This document shows, in pieces, positions 2,120 to 64,000 of a DNA stretch of 64,000 nucleotides. A program made the position numbers and the translations under genes. The DNA comes from Acidobacteriota bacterium. Lineage in GTDB: Bacteria > Acidobacteriota > Blastocatellia > UBA7656. The notes under the pieces were generated by a model. That model ran no database searches. It was not told where the DNA came from and saw only the letters and a program-made list of their open reading frames with translations. The number at the start of each line of letters is the position of its first letter. The stretch's first letter is position 1. The stretch is from positions 1 through 64,000 of the forward strand of contig JBBPIG010000012.1 in assembly GCA_038040445.1 (NCBI GenBank), in the 5' to 3' direction.

Positions 2120-4540
2120 TCATTCGCACCGGAGCGCGACCATCGGGTCGACCTTCGTTGCTTTGCGCGTGGGTACATAACACGCCACCATCGCGACGGT
2201 ACCCAGCAACACCGAGATTCCCACAAAGGTGAGCGGATCGGTCGAAGTGACCCCGTACAGAATCTGCGCCATCGCCCGGGTCATCGCAAAGGCGCCTGCA
2301 AGTCCGATGACGATGCCGATGAGAGTTAGCGTCAATCCCTGGGTGATGACCAGCCTAAAAATATCTCGAGCCTGGGCGCCCAACGCGATGCGAATGCCGA
2401 TCTCGTGAGTGCGCTGGGAGACGGCGTAGCTCATCACCGCGTAGATGCCTACCCCCGCAAGCACGAGCGCAAGCAGCGCGAAGACCGCCATCATCGACGA
2501 CGCCAATCGCTTGGGCGACATTCGAAAAGCGATTACTTGCTCCATCGGTTGGACGTTGAAGACTGGCAGCGTCTTATCGAGCGCGCTCACTTCACCACGC
2601 ACTGCAGAAGTGAGTTGCGCCGGGTCAGAGGCGCTGCGAATCACCAGGGATATCGAGCGCCATACCTCCTGCGTGTAAGGGGCGTAAATCTGCGCCTCGA
2701 GTTTGTCATCGAAGTCTGCATTCATCACATTGGCCGTCACGCCGATGATCGACACTGCCGGACCGCGGGGTTGTGCGAACTGCTGTCCGATGGGATCCTG
2801 GCCGGGCAGGAACTCGTTCACGAACGCTTCGTTGACCAACGCGACGCGCGGTGAATCGCCGCGATCCTGGCTGGTCAAGTTACGGCCTTTGATGAGCCGG
2901 GTACCGATGGCTTCGAAATAGCCGGGCGTAACCGGAGTGTACAGGACGTTTGGTTGCTTACCTTGCGGAAAAACGGTCTGCCCGATTCGCTCGATGCCAT
3001 GGCTGTTGTTGAACCCGCCCATAGGCAGATTGCCAACCCCACCGACGCGCGTCACACCGGGCAACGCTTCGATGCGATCCAGAAGCTGGTTGTAGAAGCT
3101 GAGTCGCGTCTCGACCTTACCGTATTTTTCATTTGGCAGCGAAACTTCCATAGTCAGGACGTTTGTCGGCTTGACGCCGAGGTCCGATCGTAGCAATTCG
3201 ACGAAGCTGCGAATCATCAACCCTGCGCCGATCAGCAGCACCAGCGACAACGCGACCTCCGCAACCACCAAAATGTTGCGCGCGCGATTGTGCGACGCCT
3301 TGCCCGATGAGCCTTTGCCGCCTTCTTTCAAAGCTTCGTTGAAATTCGTCTTGGTGGATTGCATCGCCGGAACCAGCCCGAAGAGCAGGCCGGTTAACAC
3401 CGACACGATGAGCGTGAAGACGAACACTGTTCGATTGATGACAAGGTTATGCCAGCCGGGGATGAACTTGGAAAAATCGTCGGGGATGGCGCGTGAGAGC
3501 GCTCCTACGCCCCAGACCGAAACCAGCAATCCGAGCGCGCCGCCGGCCAGACTTAGAAGCAAACTCTCGGTGAGCAACTGGCGAACGAGCCGCCACCGGC
3601 TCGCGCCCATTGCCAATCGAATCGCGATCTCTTTCTGCCGGGATGCACCGCGCACAAGCAACAGATTTGCGACGTTGGCGCACGCGATCAGCAGTACGAA
3701 GCCGACAGCGGCCAGCATCACCGGCGCGTACATGCGCGAGCCGCGCGTTGCGTCTTCCGTCATTGAAAGGACGTTGACGCTTCGTCCGGCGTTGGTTTCC
3801 GGAAACTGCTCGGCCGCGCGCGCCGCAATCCCCTTGAGGTCTTCGCGAGCTTGTTCGCTGGTCACGCCCGGCTTGAGCAAGCCCATCACTTGCAGATAAT
3901 GATCGCCGCGGTTGGTCAGGTCTTTTGCGTCGAAGACGATGGGCGCCCACATCTCGCCGCCGTTGAACGGATAGTTGAACTGCGGCGGCATCACGCCGAT
4001 CACGGTGAAGTTCTTGCCGTTGACCCGGATGGTTTGGTTGACTATGTTCGGGTCCGCGCCGAAGCGGCGCTGCCAGAGATTGTGCTTCAGAACGACGACT
4101 TGTTGCTTGCCCGCCTGGCCTTCATCGGGCGCGAACGTGCGGCCATACATCGCCCGGACACCGAGCGCGTCGAAAAAGCTCGCCGACACGAGGTAACCCA
4201 AGAACCGCTCCGTCTCGTCGAGCTCGGTCAGATCGAAGTAGCGCTGGCTGATGGCAACAACCTGTTCGAAGGTTTGATTCTGCTCACGCCAGTCGTTGAC
4301 GTTGGCTGGCGCAACCGAGCCGCGTTTGAAGCCAAGTTGCGGGTTGGCTTCCCAAAGCATCAGCAGCCGGTCCTGATTCGGAAAAGAAAACGGATGAAAC
4401 AGCGTCGCATCCATAGCGCTGAACGTGGTCGTGTTGGCGGCGATGCCAAGCGTGATCGCAAGCAGAGCCACTGCTGTGAACCCGGGACTGCGCAGCAGCA
4501 TTCGGATTCCAAAGCGGACGTCTTTGATGACAGTTTCCAT
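2120..4540 (-). CDS. ADOP (MacB/FtsX-type) permease 1
   Basis: An 806-residue member of the acidobacterial duplicated orphan permeases: an N-terminal membrane segment (GFTAVALLAITLGIA), a MacB-like periplasmic domain, an FtsX-type three-helix block, then a second half with the same plan. The two cytoplasmic signature loops read [13 protein letters not shown] and [13 protein letters not shown], each preceding an FtsX block. It ends [12 protein letters not shown], the stereotyped family tail with Cys in place of the more common Tyr. The family resembles MacB permeases but lacks the ABC ATPase, and its substrate is unknown. I prefer the ATG at 4540 (METVIKDVR), which matches paralogs; an ATG two codons earlier (4546) overlaps the stop of the restored four-helix-bundle frame. 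No clear SD. Confidence 0.88.
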   Translation of the reverse strand: METVIKDVRFGIRMLLRSPGFTAVALLAITLGIAANTTTFSAMDATLFHPFSFPNQDRLLMLWEANPQLGFKRGSVAPANVNDWREQNQTFEQVVAISQRYFDLTELDETERFLGYLVSASFFDALGVRAMYGRTFAPDEGQAGKQQVVVLKHNLWQRRFGADPNIVNQTIRVNGKNFTVIGVMPPQFNYPFNGGEMWAPIVFDAKDLTNRGDHYLQVMGLLKPGVTSEQAREDLKGIAARAAEQFPETNAGRSVNVLSMTEDATRGSRMYAPVMLAAVGFVLLIACANVANLLLVRGASRQKEIAIRLAMGASRWRLVRQLLTESLLLSLAGGALGLLVSVWGVGALSRAIPDDFSKFIPGWHNLVINRTVFVFTLIVSVLTGLLFGLVPAMQSTKTNFNEALKEGGKGSSGKASHNRARNILVVAEVALSLVLLIGAGLMIRSFVELLRSDLGVKPTNVLTMEVSLPNEKYGKVETRLSFYNQLLDRIEALPGVTRVGGVGNLPMGGFNNSHGIERIGQTVFPQGKQPNVLYTPVTPGYFEAIGTRLIKGRNLTSQDRGDSPRVALVNEAFVNEFLPGQDPIGQQFAQPRGPAVSIIGVTANVMNADFDDKLEAQIYAPYTQEVWRSISLVIRSASDPAQLTSAVRGEVSALDKTLPVFNVQPMEQVIAFRMSPKRLASSMMAVFALLALVLAGVGIYAVMSYAVSQRTHEIGIRIALGAQARDIFRLVITQGLTLTLIGIVIGLAGAFAMTRAMAQILYGVTSTDPLTFVGISVLLGTVAMVACYVPTRKATKVDPMVALRCE

Positions 4541-4542
4541 AA

Positions 4543-4928
4543 TCATATTTTCGATTTCCGATTGGCGATTGCCGATTGCTTCCGGCGCGCTGCTGAGATC
4601 CGCGAGGCCGCCATGATTGCGACCAGTTCGTTAGCGTCCTAAGCAAGGGCTCGACCTTGCCGGCGGGGAGAAGGCTTCCCCCGATGATCAATTCCATCCA
4701 AAAGGCGCTCTCATCAGCTTCTTCTTCTACGACCCCAATCTTGGCAATGAACTCCGCCCGCGATCGACCCCGACAGCAAGCTCGGTAGTTAGATCCGACT
4801 CCAGTGCCGCTGCGCACGAGTTGGTTGCCAATCGCCCGTCCTGAAACGGTCTTTGGAAGAGCCTCAACCAAACTCATAACTCTCAATGCAAATCTTTTTG
4901 TTCTCGCTTTCAGCTCGGCCTTATTCAT
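4543..4928 (-). pseudogene. Frameshifted four-helix-bundle protein (23S rRNA IVP-like)
   Basis: Starting at ATG 4928 (MNKAELKARTKRFALRVM) this reads as a four-helix-bundle protein of the family named after ORFs in 23S rRNA intervening sequences: VSGRAIGNQLVRSGTGVGSNY, then EFIAKIGVVEEEADESAFW. The original frame then turns into low-quality sequence. Reading one base over from about 4635 restores the family C-terminus (DANELVAIMAASRISAARRK) and ends at TGA 4545-4543. One missing G in a G run near 4635 explains this. The restored stop overlaps the ATG at 4546 as ATGA. The last codons (QSAIANRKSK) are encoded by heptamer repeat units. Function in this family is unknown. The frameshift could be a true mutation or an assembly error. 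Confidence 0.75.
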
Positions 4929-4932
4929 TATG

Positions 4933-5024
4933 TTTCCGATTTCCGAGTGGCGATTGCGGATTGCTTGTTCACCTTCAGCGTGAAATCGGCAATCGCAAAT
5001 CGGCAATCGGAAATCGGAAATCAA
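4933..5024. repeat. Heptamer inverted repeat (TTTCCGA/TTGCCGA family)
   Basis: Left arm 4933-4967 is TTTCCGA, TTTCCGA, GTGGCGA, TTGCGGA, TTGCTTG. Right arm 4983-5024 is AAATCGG, CAATCGC, AAATCGG, CAATCGG, AAATCGG, AAATCAA. The arms are complementary and all units stay in 7-bp register. A lone left-type arm of the same family lies at about 4550-4580 inside the broken four-helix-bundle gene. Confidence 0.8.
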
Positions 5025-5028
5025 TGTA

Positions 5029-7461: not shown

Positions 7462-7475
7462 GATTCACCTTTTCT

Positions 7476-7610
7476 CAGGGTTCCGGGTTCAAGGTTCAGG
7501 GTTCCGGGTTCAGAGTTCAGAGTTCCGGGTCCACGGTTCTACGTTCTGACACTCGTCGAAGCTGATAAATAAAACGTCAACCCTGAACCCGGAACTCTGA
7601 ACCCTGAACC
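7476..7610. repeat. Heptamer inverted repeat (GTTCAGG/GTTCCGG family)
   Basis: About ten 7-mers in the left arm (CAGGGTT, CCGGGTT, CAAGGTT, CAGGGTT, CCGGGTT, CAGAGTT twice, CCGGGTC, CACGGTT, CTACGTT) are followed by a roughly 40-bp loop. The right arm (AACCCTG, AACCCGG, AACTCTG, AACCCTG) ends seven bases before the stop codon of the next ADOP. The arms are complementary, with more units on the left. Confidence 0.85.
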
Positions 7611-26053: not shown

Positions 26054-27766
26054 ATGAATCGAATCAAAAGACGTGACGTGCTCAAAGCCGGAGGCGCGGT
26101 GCTGGGAGGCGCGCTTCTGCAGAGCAAGACTAGAGCTCAGAATCGGCCTAGAGACTATCGGATCCTTGACTGTAAGTGGATCGAAAAAGTCATCGACGGC
26201 AACCGCGTACGGATGCGTACCTACAGCGGCGAGGTGCCCGGACCCCTGATCAAGACCCGACCCGGCGAGACCTTGCGGATTCGGGTGAAGAACTCGCTGC
26301 CGCCCTATGATTCCACGGGCTGGAACGGCGACCACAACGTTCCACATCAGCTCAATACCACCAACCTGCACCTACACGGCCTGGACATTCAGCCCCATTT
26401 GTTCGAGCCGCTGGGCACCGCCAATCCGCTTGCGGCAATGATCGCCATCGAGCCGGGCAGGCACTATGACTACAGCTTCAAGATCCCCGACGACCATCCA
26501 CCCGGCCTGTACTGGTATCATCCGCACCATCACGGCTCGACCGCCGTTCAGGCGACCAGCGGGATGGCCGGCGCGGTGATCGTCTACGGCAACATAGATG
26601 AAGTTCCGGAGATCAAAGCCGCGCGCGACATTCACCTGGTGATGCAAGACCTCGGTCTTTTCCCGAGCGAGACGAATTCAAACGTATGGGTCTACGAGCC
26701 CAAGCAGAACGCCATCTGGCAGACATTCGGCGGCAACGTCACGATCTACGATCCGGCCACCCAGAAGAACACTCCCACGACGCTCAAAGGCGGTTTCTCG
26801 ACCGGTGACTACGCGCTTCACTATTACCTGATCAACGGACAGGCTTTTTTCAAGGAAACGCACAACCAGAGCGCTCCGCAACAGCCAACCACCAAGCAGC
26901 TAAGCGTGCCCCGCTATACTCTTGCGCCAGGCGAAGTGGTTCGCTTCCGCATGCTCAACGGGTGCTCGGACAACATGATGCCCATCGTCGTAGAAGGGCA
27001 CACCATGTACCTGGTTGCCCTGGATGGCGTCAATTTCCCGGCGCCTCAAGCGATTCCCACGCAGCCCATCACCGGCGCCAACGGGCAGGTTCTACTCGCT
27101 CCCGCAAACCGGGCTGAGTTTCTGATCAAAGCGAGCACGACCCCAAACATTTATCGAATCGTGCAGCTCGCGCAGAACCAGCAGTTCATCCAGAGCGACC
27201 AGAAGATCATCGCCGAGATCGAGGTGAAGGGCGCTCCCAAGGACATGCCGCTGCCGCAAAAGCTTCCGACTCCCTCTCGTTACTATCCACTGATTCAGCA
27301 GAATCAGGTCCAACAAATCCGAACGATCGCCTTCAGCGGAGCGTTTCCCGCAGTGATGAATCCTTACGTCGGCGGCGACTTCTCGATCAACAACACCCTG
27401 TACCAGGAAACTGCCGTACCCGAGGTGGTCGAACTCACGGGCGTCGAAGAATGGCAGATTCAAGTGGGTGACGCGCATCATGGCGGCACCGAAGGCCATC
27501 CCTTCCACATTCACGTGAACCATTTCGAAGTCATTTCGATCAACAACGTGAATCTGCCGCCCGGCACGATTCAAGACACGATCTGGGTCCCGGCCAATTC
27601 GACGGCGGTGATCAGGACGAAGTTCAAGCAGTGGACCGGCAAGGCGGTCTATCACTGTCACATTCTCCCTCACGAGGACACCGGGATGATGGCGAATTTC
27701 CTGATCGTCCCCAACACACCCGGCAAGCGGCGCGGCTCCGGCCACACTCGGACGCACGGAGGATAG
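26054..27766 (+). CDS. Tat-exported multicopper oxidase
   Basis: A 570-residue periplasmic oxidase. The N-terminus MNRIKRRDVLKAGGAVLGGALL is a twin-arginine signal. All four copper-ligand blocks are present: HLHG (106-109), HPHHHG (156-161), HPFHIH (482-487) and HCHILPHEDTGM, where His534-Cys535-His536, His540 and Met545 supply the type 1 and trinuclear sites. The three-cupredoxin length fits laccase, CueO and bilirubin-oxidase types. It couples one-electron oxidation of a donor to reduction of O2 to water. SD AAGGAGC lies upstream of ATG 26054. It follows the molybdoenzyme by 50 bp, so it is probably the last gene of the cytochrome-molybdoenzyme-oxidase operon. The stop codon lies inside a heptamer repeat. 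The physiological donor is not known. Confidence 0.93.
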   Translation: MNRIKRRDVLKAGGAVLGGALLQSKTRAQNRPRDYRILDCKWIEKVIDGNRVRMRTYSGEVPGPLIKTRPGETLRIRVKNSLPPYDSTGWNGDHNVPHQLNTTNLHLHGLDIQPHLFEPLGTANPLAAMIAIEPGRHYDYSFKIPDDHPPGLYWYHPHHHGSTAVQATSGMAGAVIVYGNIDEVPEIKAARDIHLVMQDLGLFPSETNSNVWVYEPKQNAIWQTFGGNVTIYDPATQKNTPTTLKGGFSTGDYALHYYLINGQAFFKETHNQSAPQQPTTKQLSVPRYTLAPGEVVRFRMLNGCSDNMMPIVVEGHTMYLVALDGVNFPAPQAIPTQPITGANGQVLLAPANRAEFLIKASTTPNIYRIVQLAQNQQFIQSDQKIIAEIEVKGAPKDMPLPQKLPTPSRYYPLIQQNQVQQIRTIAFSGAFPAVMNPYVGGDFSINNTLYQETAVPEVVELTGVEEWQIQVGDAHHGGTEGHPFHIHVNHFEVISINNVNLPPGTIQDTIWVPANSTAVIRTKFKQWTGKAVYHCHILPHEDTGMMANFLIVPNTPGKRRGSGHTRTHGG

Positions 27767-27864
27767 AAGATAGAGGATCGAGGATCGAAGATAGAGGATA
27801 GAAAGGAAGCTATCCTCGATCCTCATCTCTATCCTCGATCGTCTATCCTCTATCCTCGATCTTC
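27759..27864. repeat. Heptamer inverted repeat (GAGGATA/TATCCTC family) entering a CDS
   Basis: Left arm in register from 27759: GAGGATA, GAAGATA, GAGGATC, GAGGATC, GAAGATA, GAGGATA, GAAAGGA. The oxidase stop codon (27764-27766) spans the first two units. Right arm 27811-27864: TATCCTC, GATCCTC, a 5-base break, TATCCTC, GATCGTC, TATCCTC, TATCCTC, GATCTTC. The bases after it (ACGCGTCACGCTTCAC) resemble the GTGATGC family. It ends 12 bp from the next ADOP stop. Confidence 0.85.
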
Positions 27865-27876
27865 ACGCGTCACGCT

Positions 27877-30343: not shown

Positions 30344-30476
30344 GTTCAGAGTTCAGGGTTCAGGGTTTCTGGTTTCTCGTTTCTGGTCTTTCGCTTCTGG
30401 CGTCTCTTTTCTGATATTGCTTACAAGACCGAACAAGAAACCAGAAACCCGGAACCCTGAGCTCTGAACACGGAAC
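30344..30476. repeat. Mosaic heptamer inverted repeat with shared loop core
   Basis: Left arm from 30344: GTTCAGA, GTTCAGG, GTTCAGG, then a switch to GTTTCTG, GTTTCTC, GTTTCTG, GTCTTTC, GCTTCTG, GCGTCTC, TTTTCTG, all in 7-bp register. The loop holds TTGCTTACAAGACCGA (30417-30432), a relative of the loop cores at 35563 and 61338. The right arm first has GAAAC-type and then GAAC-type units, mirroring the left. Confidence 0.85.
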
Positions 30477-32893: not shown

Positions 32894-33050
32894 GTTCAGT
32901 TTCAGGGTTCCGGTTCAGAGTTCCAGGTTCCGGGTTCGTAGTCCCGCCTTCAGGCGGAAGGTTGTCTAACTAGCTTCTACCAACGCGGCTACGAACTTCC
33001 GCCTGAAGGCGGGACTACGAACCCGGAACCCCGAACCCGGAACCACGAAC
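32894..33050. repeat. Heptamer inverted repeat with nested 27-bp perfect palindrome
   Basis: GTTCAGG/GTTCCGG-type units flank an inner perfect 27-bp inverted repeat, 32934-32960 paired with 32996-33022, with a 35-bp loop. The inner arm starts GTTCGTAGTCCCGCC, continues with its own small palindrome CCGCCTTCAGGCGG, and its first seven bases continue the heptamer register. The outer right arm (AACCCGG, AACCCCG, AACCCGG, AACCACG) is complementary to the left. Confidence 0.85.
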
Positions 33051-35492
33051 CTATTCGTATCTTAGAGCGACCATCGGATCGACTTTCGTAGCCCTGCGAG
33101 CCGGCACATAACAAGCCAGCAGCGCAACGCACGTCAACAACAACGCAAGCAGCGCGAACGTTGCCGGATCGGTGGCGCTCATACCGAACAACAGACTCGC
33201 CATCAACCTGGTCAAGACGAATGCCGCGCCCAGACCGATTCCGACTCCGAGCAGCGCCAGCCTCATCCCCTTCTTCAGCACAAGACTGAGGATGTCGCGC
33301 CGCGGCGCGCCCAAAGCCAATCGCACACCAATCTCCGGAGTGTGCTGCACGACGAAATAAGCCAGCACGCCATAAATCCCCAACGTGGCCAGCAGCAGAG
33401 CAACGGCGGCAAAGATCACCAGCAGAGTCATGCCCAACCGCCGCATCGCAGTCTCCTGGCCAAGCACTTCATCCATCGTCCGAATGTTCGAGACAGGTTG
33501 ATCAGGATCGATCGCGTGAATCGCCTCACGCACGGCTGCGGCAAGGCTCAACGGATCAACCGCCGTGCGCACGGCCAAATCGCGCGGCGCGTAGAACTGG
33601 TGATCCGGAATTTGACGCTGAGGCAAATACATCTCGGCCTTGACCGGCTCGTCGATTCCCATTTGCCGCACGTCGCCGGCGATGCCGGCGATAGTTATCC
33701 ACGGCCTCTTAGTTTCCGGGCCGCCAAGCTTGAAGCGTTTGCCCACTGCGTCTCCACCCGGCCAATACTCGCGAGCCATTGTTTCGTTGACCACTGCGAC
33801 GGGAAGTGTCTGCTCATTGTCGCCGTCGTCGAAATAGCGTCCTTGCCGCAGCGGGATGCCCATGGTCTTCAGATAGTCGCCGATTATCTGACGATGATTC
33901 GCGTCGTAGGACAGGCCTCCCGCGCGAGATTCTTCGACCGTGAGGCCCTCCGGGTAGAAGCCGCTCGTGCCGCCCTTCCACTCCAACGGAACTGTGGTGG
34001 CGTACCCGGCGGAGATGACTCCCGGCAACGCTTTCACGCGCTCGAGCACTTGATTGTAAAAGGGTGTGCGTTCATTTTGTTCGCGGTATTTGTATCGCGG
34101 CAGCACTGTTCGCACCGTCAGCACGTTTTGCGGCCGCAACCCCGAGTATTGATCGCGCAGCTTGAGGAAGGTTTGAATCAGAAGCCCCGCGCCAACCAGC
34201 AACACCAACGCCAAAGCGACTTCAGCGACGACCATCACGCTGCGCAGCCTGTTGCCTCCCGCGCTCAAGCCCGAGCGCCCGCCGCTCTGTTTCAACGCCT
34301 CGTGAAGATCGATCTTTGACGCTTGCAGCGCCGGGGCTAAGCCGAAGACGGCGCCGGTGACTAACGAAACAAGCAAGGTGTAGCCAAGCACTCGCAGATC
34401 CAGCTCGAGGTTGGTCGAGAGAGCCAGAGCATCGGGGATGAGGCGCTTCAAGAAGGCAAAGCTCCACCAGGCGAGCAACACCCCGAGCACCGCGCCGGTC
34501 ATCGACAGGAGGATGCTTTCAGTCAACAACTGCCGCACGATTCGCGATCGGCCCGCGCCAAGCGCCAAGCGCACCGCGATCTCGCGCTTGCGACTCGCCG
34601 CGCGTGACAGCAAGAGGTTTGCGATGTTCGCACAAGCAATCAGCAGCACGAATCCGACTGCTACTAGCAGGACGAGCAGCGGGCGCCGCAGATCGCCGGC
34701 CAACTGCTCGCGCAGGCTCATCACGTAAGCGCTGATCCGTCCGGCTTCATCTGGATAGTCGCGCGCTATGCGCTGCTGAATCGTTTCAATGTCGGCATTC
34801 GCTTGCTGCAAGGTAACGCCTTGCTTCATTCGCGCGACAACCTGCAGGTAGTGACTTCCGCGCTGGGTCAATTGCTGCGAGGTGAAAGCCATCGGCACCC
34901 AGAGTCCGATCTCGCTTTCCAAAAACTGAAAGCCCGCCGGCATCACACCAACTACGGTGTGTTTATCGCCGCTAAGCAGAAGCTCACGCCCGATGATGCT
35001 TTGCTCGCCGCCGTAACGCTGCTGCCAGAGCCCGTAGCTGAGCACGACCACCTTGTTGGCTTCCGGCTTGTCGTCTTCCGGCAAAAAGACCCCGCCTAGG
35101 ACAGGGTTGACGCCGAGCAGCGGGAAGAAACTAGCGGTCGCTCCATAAGCCGCGACTTTCTCAGGCTCGCCGTCGCCCGTCAGGTTAAAGCTGCGTTCAT
35201 CAAGGGCGCCGATGTCTTCGAATACCTGATTCTGCGATTTCCAATCGGCGTAGTTGGCCGGCGCGGGCGTGTTGCGCGGGAACCCGGCGAATGATACGTC
35301 TTCCCAAACCATCACCAGGCGGTCCGGTTCATGGAAGGGCAACGACCGCAGCAACACTGCATTCACCACACTGAAGATGGCTGTGTTCGCGCCGATCCCC
35401 AACGCCAGCGAAAGCACGGCGATCGATGCAAAACCTGGATTCCTGGCCAGCATCCGACCCCCGTAACGCAAGTCCTGCAACAACGCTTCCAT
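33051..35492 (-). CDS. ADOP (MacB/FtsX-type) permease 6
   Basis: An 813-residue orphan permease, start ATG 35492 ([21 protein letters not shown]) with SD GGAGG. Signatures are RKREIAVRLALGA and HTPEIGVRLALGA, where Pro replaces the usual His, Asn or Arg in the second loop. The tail is [12 protein letters not shown]. The periplasmic domain keeps PANYADWKSQNQVFEDIGALDERSFNLTG-type sequence that several paralogs share. It is the first gene of the second ADOP run on the minus strand, so its upstream region (about 600 bp, with a heptamer hairpin) should contain the promoter for it or for the run. Confidence 0.88.
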   Translation of the reverse strand: MEALLQDLRYGGRMLARNPGFASIAVLSLALGIGANTAIFSVVNAVLLRSLPFHEPDRLVMVWEDVSFAGFPRNTPAPANYADWKSQNQVFEDIGALDERSFNLTGDGEPEKVAAYGATASFFPLLGVNPVLGGVFLPEDDKPEANKVVVLSYGLWQQRYGGEQSIIGRELLLSGDKHTVVGVMPAGFQFLESEIGLWVPMAFTSQQLTQRGSHYLQVVARMKQGVTLQQANADIETIQQRIARDYPDEAGRISAYVMSLREQLAGDLRRPLLVLLVAVGFVLLIACANIANLLLSRAASRKREIAVRLALGAGRSRIVRQLLTESILLSMTGAVLGVLLAWWSFAFLKRLIPDALALSTNLELDLRVLGYTLLVSLVTGAVFGLAPALQASKIDLHEALKQSGGRSGLSAGGNRLRSVMVVAEVALALVLLVGAGLLIQTFLKLRDQYSGLRPQNVLTVRTVLPRYKYREQNERTPFYNQVLERVKALPGVISAGYATTVPLEWKGGTSGFYPEGLTVEESRAGGLSYDANHRQIIGDYLKTMGIPLRQGRYFDDGDNEQTLPVAVVNETMAREYWPGGDAVGKRFKLGGPETKRPWITIAGIAGDVRQMGIDEPVKAEMYLPQRQIPDHQFYAPRDLAVRTAVDPLSLAAAVREAIHAIDPDQPVSNIRTMDEVLGQETAMRRLGMTLLVIFAAVALLLATLGIYGVLAYFVVQHTPEIGVRLALGAPRRDILSLVLKKGMRLALLGVGIGLGAAFVLTRLMASLLFGMSATDPATFALLALLLTCVALLACYVPARRATKVDPMVALRYE

Positions 35493-35510
35493 TAGTCCTC
35501 CGAATTCCCG

Positions 35511-35645
35511 GTTCAGGGTTCAGGGTTTCTGGTTTTTGGTTTCTGGTTTATGGTTCTTGGCTCCAGTCTCGTAACCAAAAATCAGAAAGAGACGCCCAGA
35601 AACGAGAAACCAGAAACCCGAAACTCTGAACCCGGGACCCTGAAC
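35511..35645. repeat. Mosaic heptamer inverted repeat with shared loop core
   Basis: Left arm: GTTCAGG, GTTCAGG, then GTTTCTG, GTTTTTG, GTTTCTG, GTTTATG, GTTCTTG, in strict 7-bp register. The loop core CCAGTCTCGTAACCAA (35563-35578) is the exact reverse complement of 61338-61353. The right arm begins with GAAAC-type units (ACGAGAA, ACCAGAA, ACCCGAA) and ends with GAAC-type units (ACCCTGA), mirroring the left order. Confidence 0.87.
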
Positions 35646-35817
35646 CTATTCAGTTCCGAAGTAAGTGGCGCACCACGGCTTCAGGTTTCATTCTCGTCGT
35701 TAGAAATGATGCCTTGCTCGAATCTGACTTTTACTAGAGAGCAATACGCTAGTTTCACACTTGAGAATGCTCCGCTCGAAACACACCAATACCCGGACAC
35801 GGATGCACCCCACGACA

Positions 35818-36136: not shown

Positions 36137-36655
36137 ATGAGACGTTTTGCGTTAGCTCTTTCGATGTTTCTCTTAATGCTGTTGGCTTCGACGACAATAT
36201 CGTCGGCCAAGGGTCCGAAGATCATCAACAATCACGCGTTTGGTTCAACGCCTAACATAACGATTAGAGGCGTCGAGGCGGGTGCCGCTCCCTGGGTCGT
36301 GGACAATGGCAAGGTGATGCTCGATTCCAAAGGCCGGCTTCGAGTGTTCGTTACGAGATTGGTTATCGGGGAAGGCGCTCTGGCCAACGGGGATCCGGTT
36401 CCGGCAAATGTGGTTGGAACCGTCGCAACAGTCACCACCGTTCACGCGGCTTTGACGTGCGGCGGGCCAGGCGGCGGAGTTCCATTCACAATCACTTCGA
36501 CCGACGGCGTGCCGATCGACTCGGACGGCGACTTCGAGATAGACGCTCAAGTATCGATACCGTCTGTCTGCGCGCAGCCGATAGTGCTCATTCGAATCGG
36601 GACACCGGCAGCGCCGGGGCCGTGGATTGCGGCTTCGGAGCTCCCGGGAAACTAA
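36137..36655 (+). CDS. Secreted protein of unknown function
   Basis: A 172-residue exported protein. Start ATG 36137 has SD AAAGGAG, and the N-terminus (MRRFALALSMFLLMLLASTTISSAKG) is a clear signal peptide; an in-frame start 15 codons earlier lacks one. The mature part is beta-rich with glycine turns: ITIRGVEAGAAPWVV, GRLRVFVTRLVIGEGAL, and two Cys (CGGPGGG and VCAQP) that could form a disulfide. It ends with an ALL-beta pattern WIAASELPGN. I do not recognise the family; similar small secreted proteins are common in Acidobacteriota. It stands alone, downstream of the diverged repeat. Confidence 0.65.
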   Translation: MRRFALALSMFLLMLLASTTISSAKGPKIINNHAFGSTPNITIRGVEAGAAPWVVDNGKVMLDSKGRLRVFVTRLVIGEGALANGDPVPANVVGTVATVTTVHAALTCGGPGGGVPFTITSTDGVPIDSDGDFEIDAQVSIPSVCAQPIVLIRIGTPAAPGPWIAASELPGN

Positions 36656-52144: not shown

Positions 52145-52155
52145 GATTCTCCCCA

Positions 52156-52242
52156 TTTCCGATTGCCGATTGCCGATTGCCGATTTCCGCGCTGCGGATG
52201 GCCAATTCTTAAGCGGCAATCGCCAATCGCCAATCGGCAATC
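52156..52242. repeat. Heptamer inverted repeat (TTGCCGA/TTTCCGA family)
   Basis: Left arm TTTCCGA, three TTGCCGA, TTTCCGC (52156-52190). Right arm 52213-52242 contains CAATCGC, CAATCGC, CAATCGG, CAATC. The loop is about 22 bp. Upstream frames through this repeat explain the false N-terminal extension of permease 9. Confidence 0.83.
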
Positions 52243-58255: not shown

Positions 58256-58370
58256 GTTCCGGGTTCACGGTTCAGGGTTCAGAGTTCAACCTTTAGGTTG
58301 CTCCTCGCCGTCGCCCGGCAAGCTAAAGCTTGAACTCTGAACCCGGAACCTGAACCCCGGAACTCTGAAC
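58256..58370. repeat. Heptamer inverted repeat with inner stem
   Basis: GTTCCGG, GTTCACG, GTTCAGG, GTTCAGA (58256-58283), then a distinct inner stretch with short palindromes (CAACCTTTAGGTTG and CAAGCTAAAGCTTG), then complementary GAACTCTG/GAACCCGG units to the amidohydrolase stop. The inner segment is not heptameric, as in the nested element at 32934-33022. Confidence 0.8.
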
Positions 58371-59879
58371 CTATCTTTGCGCGTACGAAGCCGCCATCCC
58401 GTCGAGCATCTTGCGCAGCTCGTCTTCGGTAAACCATCGCCCGCGAGTCATCACCCCGGTTCGGCGCGATGCATTGTTCACGTCTTTGAGTGGATCGCCT
58501 TCGACCAGAATCAGATCGGCCGTCTTGCCAACTGATACCGTTCCGAACTTATCGCTTCTCAAGAACTCGGCGGCATTCGCCGTCGCGGTTCGCAGCGCCT
58601 CATAAGGCGTCAAGCCGGCAGACACCAGCTCACGCAGTTCGTCGTGCAGCGAGAACCCCGGCACAACGGAAGGCACCGGCGTATCGGTCCCGGCCAGCAT
58701 TCGCACACCCGCGGCGCGCAAGCCTTTGACAAGCTTGCTCAGCAAATCAGCTCGCGCGAAGAAACCCTTCGCGGTTTCTTTTTTGAACCGCTGAACGTAG
58801 GTGTTATTGCTCGCCTCGAATCTGGAAGCAATCCAAGGTGGCAGATATTTCATTTCCGGTCTCTTCAGGACCGCGTCAATGTCGTCCACTTGACGAGCAA
58901 TCCCACTGTAGACCGTCAACGTCGGGCTCACCCATATCCCGGCCCTAGCTGTAGCCTGGGCGACGGACGGGATTCGGCTTGCCTGGTCTCCAATCCAGCG
59001 GAGCTGCGCCTCTCGACTCGCTTCCGCCGGCGAGGTTGGGGGTTTGAAAAAGAAATAAGCGTATAGATACTCCTCGGCGTGAGCGATTGCGTCTTGCTTC
59101 TCTTCGAATGCCGCTTCGATCCCGAGATTGCGTGGCAGGTGGCCGATGACACGCATGCCTTCGCGGCGCGCAACCTCGAACAGCTTGTGATAAGCCTCGC
59201 GAGAAAAGTCCCCGTGAATCTTGATCAGGTCGTAGCCCGCGCGCTTCTGCGCGACGACCATGCGCTCAGCCTCTTCGGGCGTGGGAGTCGAGACCGGCGC
59301 GTTTGAGATAAACGGTCCGCTGGTGTAGATCGCCGGGCCCAGCGTCTCGCCTCGCGCGACCCGCTCTCGAAGCTCGAGAAACGCGGGCGTGCCGTAGAGG
59401 TTCAGCACAGTCGTCACGCCATTCGCCACAAACAACCGCAGCATCGCAGTGTTAGCGAGTTCATTGAAAACCTCGAAGTGAACGTGCATGTCGGCCAGTC
59501 CCGGCATAAGGTACTTGCCGCGCCCGTCGATCCTCAGCGCTCCGGCTGGGACCTTGACCTTGTCCGTGGGACCGAGAGCGGCTATCACTCCGTCCCTTAC
59601 GATGACGGTTTGTCCGGCCATCACTCGTTCTTCATCCATTGGGACTACGTTCACGTTGATGAAGGCGACGATCTGCTTTTGCCTAGCCTGGAGTTGCTTC
59701 ACTTCGCCGGAGGCCTGACGCCCAGTAGGTGAGTTGGATGAGTCGGCTGCGAAGTACAAAAAGGCGAGGGGCAGAGCGCCAATGCCAAACACCATGGCAA
59801 ACAGGCCAACGCCCATCAACAGATATCGTCTGAACCGATTCCATCGAGTGTTGCGAGGCTTCTTCAACGGAATATCCAT
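58371..59879 (-). CDS. Membrane-anchored amidohydrolase
   Basis: A 502-residue amidohydrolase-superfamily enzyme (imidazolonepropionase/prolidase-type). An N-terminal anchor (RRYLLMGVGLFAMVFGIGALP) precedes the barrel. Metal and catalytic residues: PGLADMHVHFE (HxH), KIHGDFSREAYHK (bridging Lys/His region), GHLPRN and HAEEYL (His ligands), and AGTDTPVPS (Asp). The second TPYEALRTATANAAEFL and GKTADLILVEGDPL are the typical C-terminal beta-sandwich turn. It is probably outside the cytoplasm, hydrolysing an amide-like substrate. Start ATG 59879 has AGGGA eight bases upstream; an ATG at 59900 would overlap the upstream gene as ATGA. Substrate unknown. Confidence 0.88.
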   Translation of the reverse strand: MDIPLKKPRNTRWNRFRRYLLMGVGLFAMVFGIGALPLAFLYFAADSSNSPTGRQASGEVKQLQARQKQIVAFINVNVVPMDEERVMAGQTVIVRDGVIAALGPTDKVKVPAGALRIDGRGKYLMPGLADMHVHFEVFNELANTAMLRLFVANGVTTVLNLYGTPAFLELRERVARGETLGPAIYTSGPFISNAPVSTPTPEEAERMVVAQKRAGYDLIKIHGDFSREAYHKLFEVARREGMRVIGHLPRNLGIEAAFEEKQDAIAHAEEYLYAYFFFKPPTSPAEASREAQLRWIGDQASRIPSVAQATARAGIWVSPTLTVYSGIARQVDDIDAVLKRPEMKYLPPWIASRFEASNNTYVQRFKKETAKGFFARADLLSKLVKGLRAAGVRMLAGTDTPVPSVVPGFSLHDELRELVSAGLTPYEALRTATANAAEFLRSDKFGTVSVGKTADLILVEGDPLKDVNNASRRTGVMTRGRWFTEDELRKMLDGMAASYAQR

Positions 59880-61221: not shown

Positions 61222-61445
61222 GTTTAGAGTTCCGGGTTCAGGGTTCAGGGTTCCGGGTTCAGGGTTCAGGGTTCAGGGTTCAGGGTTCAGAGTTCCGGGT
61301 TCAGGGTTTCTGGTTTCTAGTTCTTGGTTTCTGGTTGTTGGTTACGAGACTGGACACCCGAAACCCGAAACTAGAAACCAGAAACCTGAACCCTCGACCC
61401 TGAACCCTCGACCCTGAACCCTGAACCCTGAACCCTGAACCGCAA
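61222..61445. repeat. Longest mosaic heptamer inverted repeat
   Basis: From 61222 eighteen consecutive 7-mers keep register without a break: GTTTAGA, GTTCCGG, then mostly GTTCAGG with GTTCCGG interspersed, switching at 61306 to GTTTCTG, GTTTCTA, GTTCTTG, GTTTCTG, GTTGTTG, GTTACGA. The loop core TTGGTTACGAGACTGG (61338-61353) is the exact reverse complement of 35563-35578. The right arm has four GAAA-type units first, then eight GAAC/GAC-type units, mirroring the left arm. Confidence 0.88.
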
Positions 61446-63935: not shown

Positions 63936-64000
63936 GTTTCTGGTTCCGGGTTCAGGGTTCAGGGTTCCGAGTTCAGGGTTCAGGGTTTGTAGTTTTTGGT
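63936..64000. repeat. Heptamer array, left arm at window edge
   Basis: GTTTCTG, GTTCCGG, GTTCAGG, GTTCAGG, GTTCCGA, GTTCAGG, GTTCAGG, GTTTGTA, GTTTTTG run to the edge in strict register. The right arm lies beyond the window. Confidence 0.8.

Follow-up and report, generated by a model that had tools for sequence, protein, structure and literature searches.

Heptamer-armed hairpins with a shared core in an Acidobacteriota genome and their probable relation to PF05635 elements

The intervening sequence (IVS) of Coxiella burnetii, which has been called selfish, encloses an S23 ORF; it has terminal inverted repeats with a 28-bp stem and is cut by RNase III, and three tandem heptameric repeats precede the ORF (PMC4990558). 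The elements described here resemble 23S rRNA IVSs in being hairpins with complementary ends around a PF05635/S23 ORF (mirror score 25.7 vs. 9.0, see below). Unlike those IVSs, they lie in the spacers of protein-coding operons, as judged from the annotated examples and the family-A sites that we read, and since their location is not in rRNA we do not class them as rRNA IVSs. They also differ in having tandem-repeat arms on both sides, many copies per genome, putative ORF-less derivatives and a repeat unit whose length is tied to the protein clade.

Heptamer repeats have been described separately. Xanthomonas genomes carry 70-75 convergent pairs of GGGAATC repeats each, near genes, which that study read as G-quadruplex repeats and in general did not link with mobile elements (Rehm et al. 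2015, PMC4692102). Like the hairpins here they are intergenic arrays of G-rich heptamers but, unlike them, they are reported without a PF05635 link or shared cores; a solved PF05635 protein, 2gsc (XCC0516), comes from Xanthomonas campestris. The heptanucleotide repeats of the cyanobacteria Calothrix and Nostoc and the TAACTGA repeats of Beggiatoaceae are likewise abundant, intergenic 7-bp tandem repeats, and the cyanobacterial PF05635 genes that we collected have 7-bp arms. In contrast to the elements here, these repeats are mostly reported as direct repeats without a hairpin, core or gene.

The PF05635 (TIGR02436) proteins are a family of four-helix bundles. The genes of the ORF-bearing elements L113, L157 and L217 match the PF05635 profile with 138.7, 120 and 138 bits, respectively, above the curated cut-off of 33.8. 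There is also a likeness to Avd of the diversity-generating retroelements, a related fold family whose homology with the PF05635 protein has been stated (PMC10053308); the matches to bAvd (E 1e-8) and to NCBIfam Avd (E 4.5e-7) are both below the curated cut-off. Unlike those retroelements, the elements here are not known to come with a reverse transcriptase, template or variable repeat. In a search of the open-access literature we found no paper joining PF05635 with heptamer arms in general, and none connecting Coxiella-type IVSs with the Xanthomonas GGGAATC heptamer pairs; novelty is provisional to that extent.

Hairpins and cores in the window

The window, by which we mean the whole stretch of 64,000 nucleotides analysed, contains the following features. 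Family A denotes the hairpins that carry core A, whose 16-bp part is TTGGTTACGAGACTGG.

2014-2106: ORF-less hairpin built of the units found in L176, a PF05635 element of this genome
4547-5028, minus strand: PF05635 (S23/IVP) gene enclosed by CGATTGC/GATTTCC heptamer arms, an ORF-bearing element located in an ADOP spacer
7475-7610: ORF-less hairpin of GGGTTCA type with another core, units as in the PF05635 element L157
27762-27865: ORF-less hairpin, also with the units of L176 of the same genome
30336-30477: ORF-less hairpin of family A, between two ADOP permease genes
30417-30432, plus strand: diverged core, 12/16 (longer core 30397-30432)
35507-35646: ORF-less hairpin of family A, arms of GGGTTCA outside and GGTTTCT inside
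35563-35578, minus strand: exact 16-bp core (longer core 35563-35599)
52155-52242: ORF-less hairpin whose units are those of the element at 4547-5028
58256-58371: ORF-less hairpin of GGGTTCA type with another core, units as in L157
61221-61441: ORF-less hairpin of family A with long GGGTTCA arms
61338-61353, plus strand: exact 16-bp core
63942-64000: left arm of a further family-A hairpin, whose exact core lies just past the window (C12:64007-64022)

An earlier note on this DNA had pointed to a 16-bp core common to three of these hairpins, and a direct reading of the sequence bears this out. Positions 35563-35578 read CCAGTCTCGTAACCAA, the reverse complement of which is found exactly at 61338-61353, while 30417-30432 (TTGCTTACAAGACCGA) is identical to it at 12 of 16 positions; each of the three cores lies near the apex of mirrored heptamer arms. 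The window contains three matches to the 16-mer at three or fewer mismatches vs. 0.21 expected, and the recurrence of the core is therefore not due to chance. A match with two mismatches at 36347-36362, inside an ORF and without arms, looks like a chance occurrence.

The RNA folds of the hairpins with cores at 35563, 61338 and 30417 are far better than those of shuffled sequences, with energies of -80.9, -69.5 and -57.4 kcal/mol and z values of -11.3, -7.9 and -7.3. No match to Rfam 15 was obtained in the window at the gathering score. The usual layout is that of a G-rich left arm, a centre and a right arm that is the reverse complement of the left, with GGGTTCA in the outer and GGTTTCT in the inner part. 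Both heptamers are frequent in the genome (298 matches vs. 0 for the control in the case of GGGTTCA, 166 vs. 4 in that of GGTTTCT), and 55 heptamer arrays were counted in about 500 kb around matches, out of 6.75 Mb. A second core family (CCAATAGCCCAAGCGCGAAACT) is common to four other elements, and the remaining cores appear to be unique.

Two other hairpins of the window should be mentioned. The one at 1408-1528 is built of the heptamers GTGATGC/TCACGCA and is without an ORF-bearing partner among the 70 elements described below. The other, at 32897-33051, is of GGTTC type, lies between two ADOP genes and has a different inverted repeat at its centre (CCGCCTTCAGGCGG ... CCGCCTGAAGGCGG).

Distribution and dispersal of the core

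A search of the whole genome (6.75 Mb, 72 contigs) for the 16-mer in either orientation gave 10 matches with at most one mismatch vs. 0 for the reversed control pattern, and all 10 copies lie inside mirrored heptamer arrays. At three mismatches the matches are mostly noise (48 in all vs. 37 for the control). In about nine copies the 16-mer belongs to a longer core at the apex, with the consensus CTGGCGTCTCCTTTCTGATTTTTGGTTACGAGACTGGAACCAG, which contains GTCTC...GAGAC, able to pair; core A is shortened in the remaining copies. Altogether there are at least 15 family-A hairpins in the genome, plus a partial one at C12:175.5 kb. Contig C12 has sites at 30.4, 35.6, 61.3, 64.0, 71.8, 104.6, 110.9 and 113.5 kb, and the others are on C3, C5, C7, C10, C26 (two) and C59. 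In a core scan of genome contigs of other organisms, 4 matches were found, none of them in arrays, where we estimate that about 7-8 would be expected by chance. The core as a stand-alone motif was ruled out, since every close copy sits in arms.

The flanks of 9 of the 14 family-A copies tested are related to those of another copy and consist mostly of ADOP permease genes (the gene at 33051-35492, for instance, matches NCBIfam ADOP with 1014 bits, which suggests an acidobacterium), and some of these copies may have been duplicated together with their neighbours. The flanks of the other 5, including copies on C5, C7, C10 and C26, are unrelated to those of any other copy, showing that the core was copied and not merely duplicated along with its neighbours. 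The idea that arms compensate each other individually within family A was not supported (complementarity of 39.6 between a copy's own arms vs. 33.3 with the arms of other copies).

The earlier proposal that the core is a discrete copied element thus holds as far as copying, occurrence in either orientation and constant association with arms are concerned, but not in the sense of a general or required site. Most GGTTTCT hairpins of the genome lack it, contrary to the expectation that hairpins with GTTTCTG repeats would carry it. There is also the second core family. The core marks one lineage of copies. The 16-mer could be a protein or RNA binding site, but no observation sets it apart as one. 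The feature common to all hairpins is the arms, and it is the arms that tie them to PF05635 elements.

A further check that had been proposed was whether the core is missing from the same spacer in relatives; it is absent from three orthologous spacers in the one congener compared, G001. In the 30.3 kb spacer of the window, G001 has similar outer arms of GGTTCA type, but neither the inner GGTTTCT arms nor core A. At C10:185.8 kb, the gene immediately after the core-A hairpin begins, by eye, like an aspartokinase. This site is occupied by a GGGGCGG-type hairpin in G001 and by a heptamer-like hairpin with the unit GTCCGGT in G002; in G004, where the upstream gene reads by eye as aspartate-semialdehyde dehydrogenase, GGCAGTA arms enclose a small gene, and G005 and G003 have practically no spacer. 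The C7:204 kb site has a GGGGCGG-type hairpin in G001 and no spacer in G005. In G001, a neighbouring spacer also contains a heptamer hairpin that is missing from the window's genome. The same gene junctions take different hairpin types in different species. The GGGGCGG-type hairpin of G001 (TGTAGGGGCGGGCCTCCGTGCCCGCCCC) is found in L111 (about 3230-3370) and L119 (about 1795-1885), at two core-A spacers.

PF05635 genes between mirrored arms

The small gene within the GGCAGTA arms of G004 encodes a PF05635 protein (23S rRNA-intervening-sequence protein, E 1e-40). PF05635 matches were found in 16 of the 17 related genomes searched, with up to 17 per genome, and 70 loci from related genomes, taken from the best matches, were compared with 58 control intervals. 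The best period in the left and right flanks was 7 in 51 and 52 loci, 8 in 9 and 9, and 9 in 5 and 4, respectively, and the two flanks of a locus usually agree. With a strict threshold for period 7, both flanks scored in 30 of 70 loci vs. 0 of 58 controls, and at least one flank in 51 of 70 vs. 1 of 58; in about 10 of the 70 loci, periodic arms are weak or missing. Left and right flanks are mirror complements of each other, with a score of 25.7 vs. 9.0 both in controls and between flanks taken from different loci. In 56 elements the G-rich units are directed towards the centre, in 6 away from it. The PF05635 gene of the window element at 4547-5028, probably frameshifted near its end, scores 33.6 bits, just below the curated cut-off.

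The length of the arm unit follows the PF05635 protein clade, whereas its sequence varies freely. In a tree of 78 proteins (123 columns), in which many forks are unresolved, one clade holds 11 of the 12 elements with 8-bp units and draws its members both from cyanobacteria and from the class to which the window belongs; another, with a support of 99, holds all four elements with 9-bp units. The 8-bp label requires 3 changes on the tree vs. 11.3 when shuffled, and none of 500 shuffles was as low.

Heptamer arms surround PF05635 genes on plasmids of Nostoc (TAGGGAG and AGGGAAC), Anabaena (AGGTGAC) and Calothrix (AGGGTGT), and the same architecture is seen on plasmids of Azospirillum and Riemerella; Leptolyngbya and Nostoc plasmids have loci with 8-bp arms. 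Exceptions on plasmids are a Calothrix locus without arms and a Pseudanabaena locus with direct instead of mirrored arrays; in some loci, one of the two arms is short. Among phage contigs with PF05635, 17 of 26 have a mirror score of at least 14. PF05635 elements in mirrored repeat arms look like a widespread kind of selfish element that has apparently gone unrecognised so far.

Movement and origin of the hairpins

Copying is shown by genome G005, where the elements L166 and L184 are 94.9% identical over 447 bp comprising arms plus gene, and have unrelated flanks. Similar but older pairs occur in G053 and between two cyanobacterial plasmids. Arms and gene are thus copied as a unit to new places. 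No target-site duplication was evident in the one junction pair read. For 54 of 64 PF05635 elements and 25 of 39 ORF-less ones, one outer end of the arms falls between -12 and +15 bp from a stop codon, compared to 7% of random positions, an effect whose size is overstated since the controls were mostly coding. Proximity to stop codons may reflect targeting or selection against disruption.

To relate ORF-less to ORF-bearing elements, we compared the 10-mers of nine ORF-less hairpins of the window with the flanks of the 70 ORF-bearing elements. The best partner was in the same genome for 8 of the 9. The hairpins at 2014-2106 and 27762-27865 have 36 and 48 10-mers in common with L176 (next best 8 and 14, respectively), and that at 52155-52242 has 42 in common with the window's own element at 4547-5028 (next best 8), an ORF-bearing copy that, as is true of many family-A hairpins, is situated in an ADOP spacer. 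The five GGGTTCA hairpins have 20-48 in common with L157; among these, only 35507-35646 has a close runner-up (20 vs. 18). Likewise, the GGTCTTT arrays of G016, from another family of the class, best match the element L175 of that genome. Terminal inverted repeats in common with an ORF-bearing element of the same genome, one criterion for MITEs, were found for 8 of the 9 window hairpins. This suggests that the ORF-less hairpins are non-autonomous derivatives of PF05635 elements, the direction from parent to derivative being read from the shared units alone.

Several other explanations were weighed. The hairpins might be plain heptameric simple-sequence repeats that slippage and template switching turned into quasi-palindromes, the core being a relic spread by duplication or gene conversion among paralogous ADOP spacers and PF05635 a bystander. 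Heptamers are the commonest repeats of 5-11 nt in many bacterial genomes, with slippage proposed as their cause (PMC4679880, PMC4692102), and the related flanks of 9 of the 14 family-A copies are consistent with this idea. However, it accounts neither for mirrored arms around one gene family across phyla, nor for a unit length that follows the PF05635 clade, nor for the copying of arms and gene to unrelated places, and the family-A copies on C5, C7, C10 and C26 do not have related flanks. It is already disfavoured by these observations and we consider it unlikely. That the hairpins are palindromic, intergenic, dispersed and multi-copy could also mean that they depend on an ordinary transposase (IS or REP-associated tyrosine transposase), as its MITEs or REP-like elements, with PF05635 as cargo; the different, GGGGCGG-type hairpin of the congener at two of the same sites would agree with this. 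The ORF-bearing units of about 420-530 bp leave no room for a transposase, however, and unit length follows the PF05635 clade; we consider this origin improbable.

RNA-level regulation (terminators, RNase III or mRNA-stability sites), with hairpins under selection in operon spacers and the core as a binding site, would fit the strong RNA folds, the position just behind stop codons and the cutting by RNase III of rRNA intervening sequences with the same protein (PMC4990558). We nevertheless regard it as highly improbable, given that the hairpin type turns over at a single junction between relatives, with hardly any spacer in two of them, and that most hairpins lack the core; a regulatory effect could be a side effect.

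The explanation that we favour, and think probable, is that core A is the non-repeat apex of one copied lineage of ORF-less hairpins, non-autonomous relatives of PF05635 elements, to which they would stand as MITEs do to transposons. PF05635 multimers may attach to the tandem units; an assembly of five four-helix bundles is named in the title of the paper on the 2gsc structure. The protein, acting in trans on these units either as DNA ends or as an RNA stem, would lead copies of the element to new sites, in most cases directly after a stop codon. ORF-less copies would use the protein in trans as well. The arms may afterwards grow or shrink by slippage and change by exchange between elements, with the core persisting as a recognisable mark of the lineage. 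A reverse transcriptase working with an Avd-like protein is an attractive candidate for the copying step.

A broader proposal, to which we would give about even chances, is that PF05635/S23 proteins define widespread mobile elements with tandem-repeat ends of 7, 8 or 9 bp, free in sequence and with a unit length determined by the protein. The heptamer repeats of many bacterial genomes would be their footprints and the rRNA IVS a special case, with mobility perhaps via an RNA stem and a reverse transcriptase with an Avd-like protein. If true, this would put a common protein family whose function is unknown into context and suggest a role for it that can be tested. It would also account for the abundance of heptamer repeats between bacterial genes and make rRNA intervening sequences, an old puzzle, part of a general class of selfish elements. 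Because unit length is linked to protein clade, a direct biochemical test is possible.

Some individual loci have features of their own. The best flank period of L201 is 13 on both sides, perhaps a further unit length. In L068, L075 and L083, from another family of the class, we found intergenic mosaics of AAATCGT, AAATCCC, GCCAGTA, GTCAGTA and TTTCCTG, partly nested as hairpins within hairpins, beside a stretch of repeats of about 10 bp. At L179 in the window's genome (C16:109.0-110.7k), a partial second copy of the element's own gene lies to the left of the PF05635 element, as though an existing copy had been hit, or joined at its side, by a later one. PF05635 elements with heptamer arms also occur in IMG/VR viral contigs (L233-L264) and could travel on phages. 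On cyanobacterial plasmids, PF05635 genes lie between cas6 and cas4 (twice), cas10 and cmr3, and nrdB and nrdA; the elements located in CRISPR operons (L218, L224, L226) could be mistaken for accessory cas genes.
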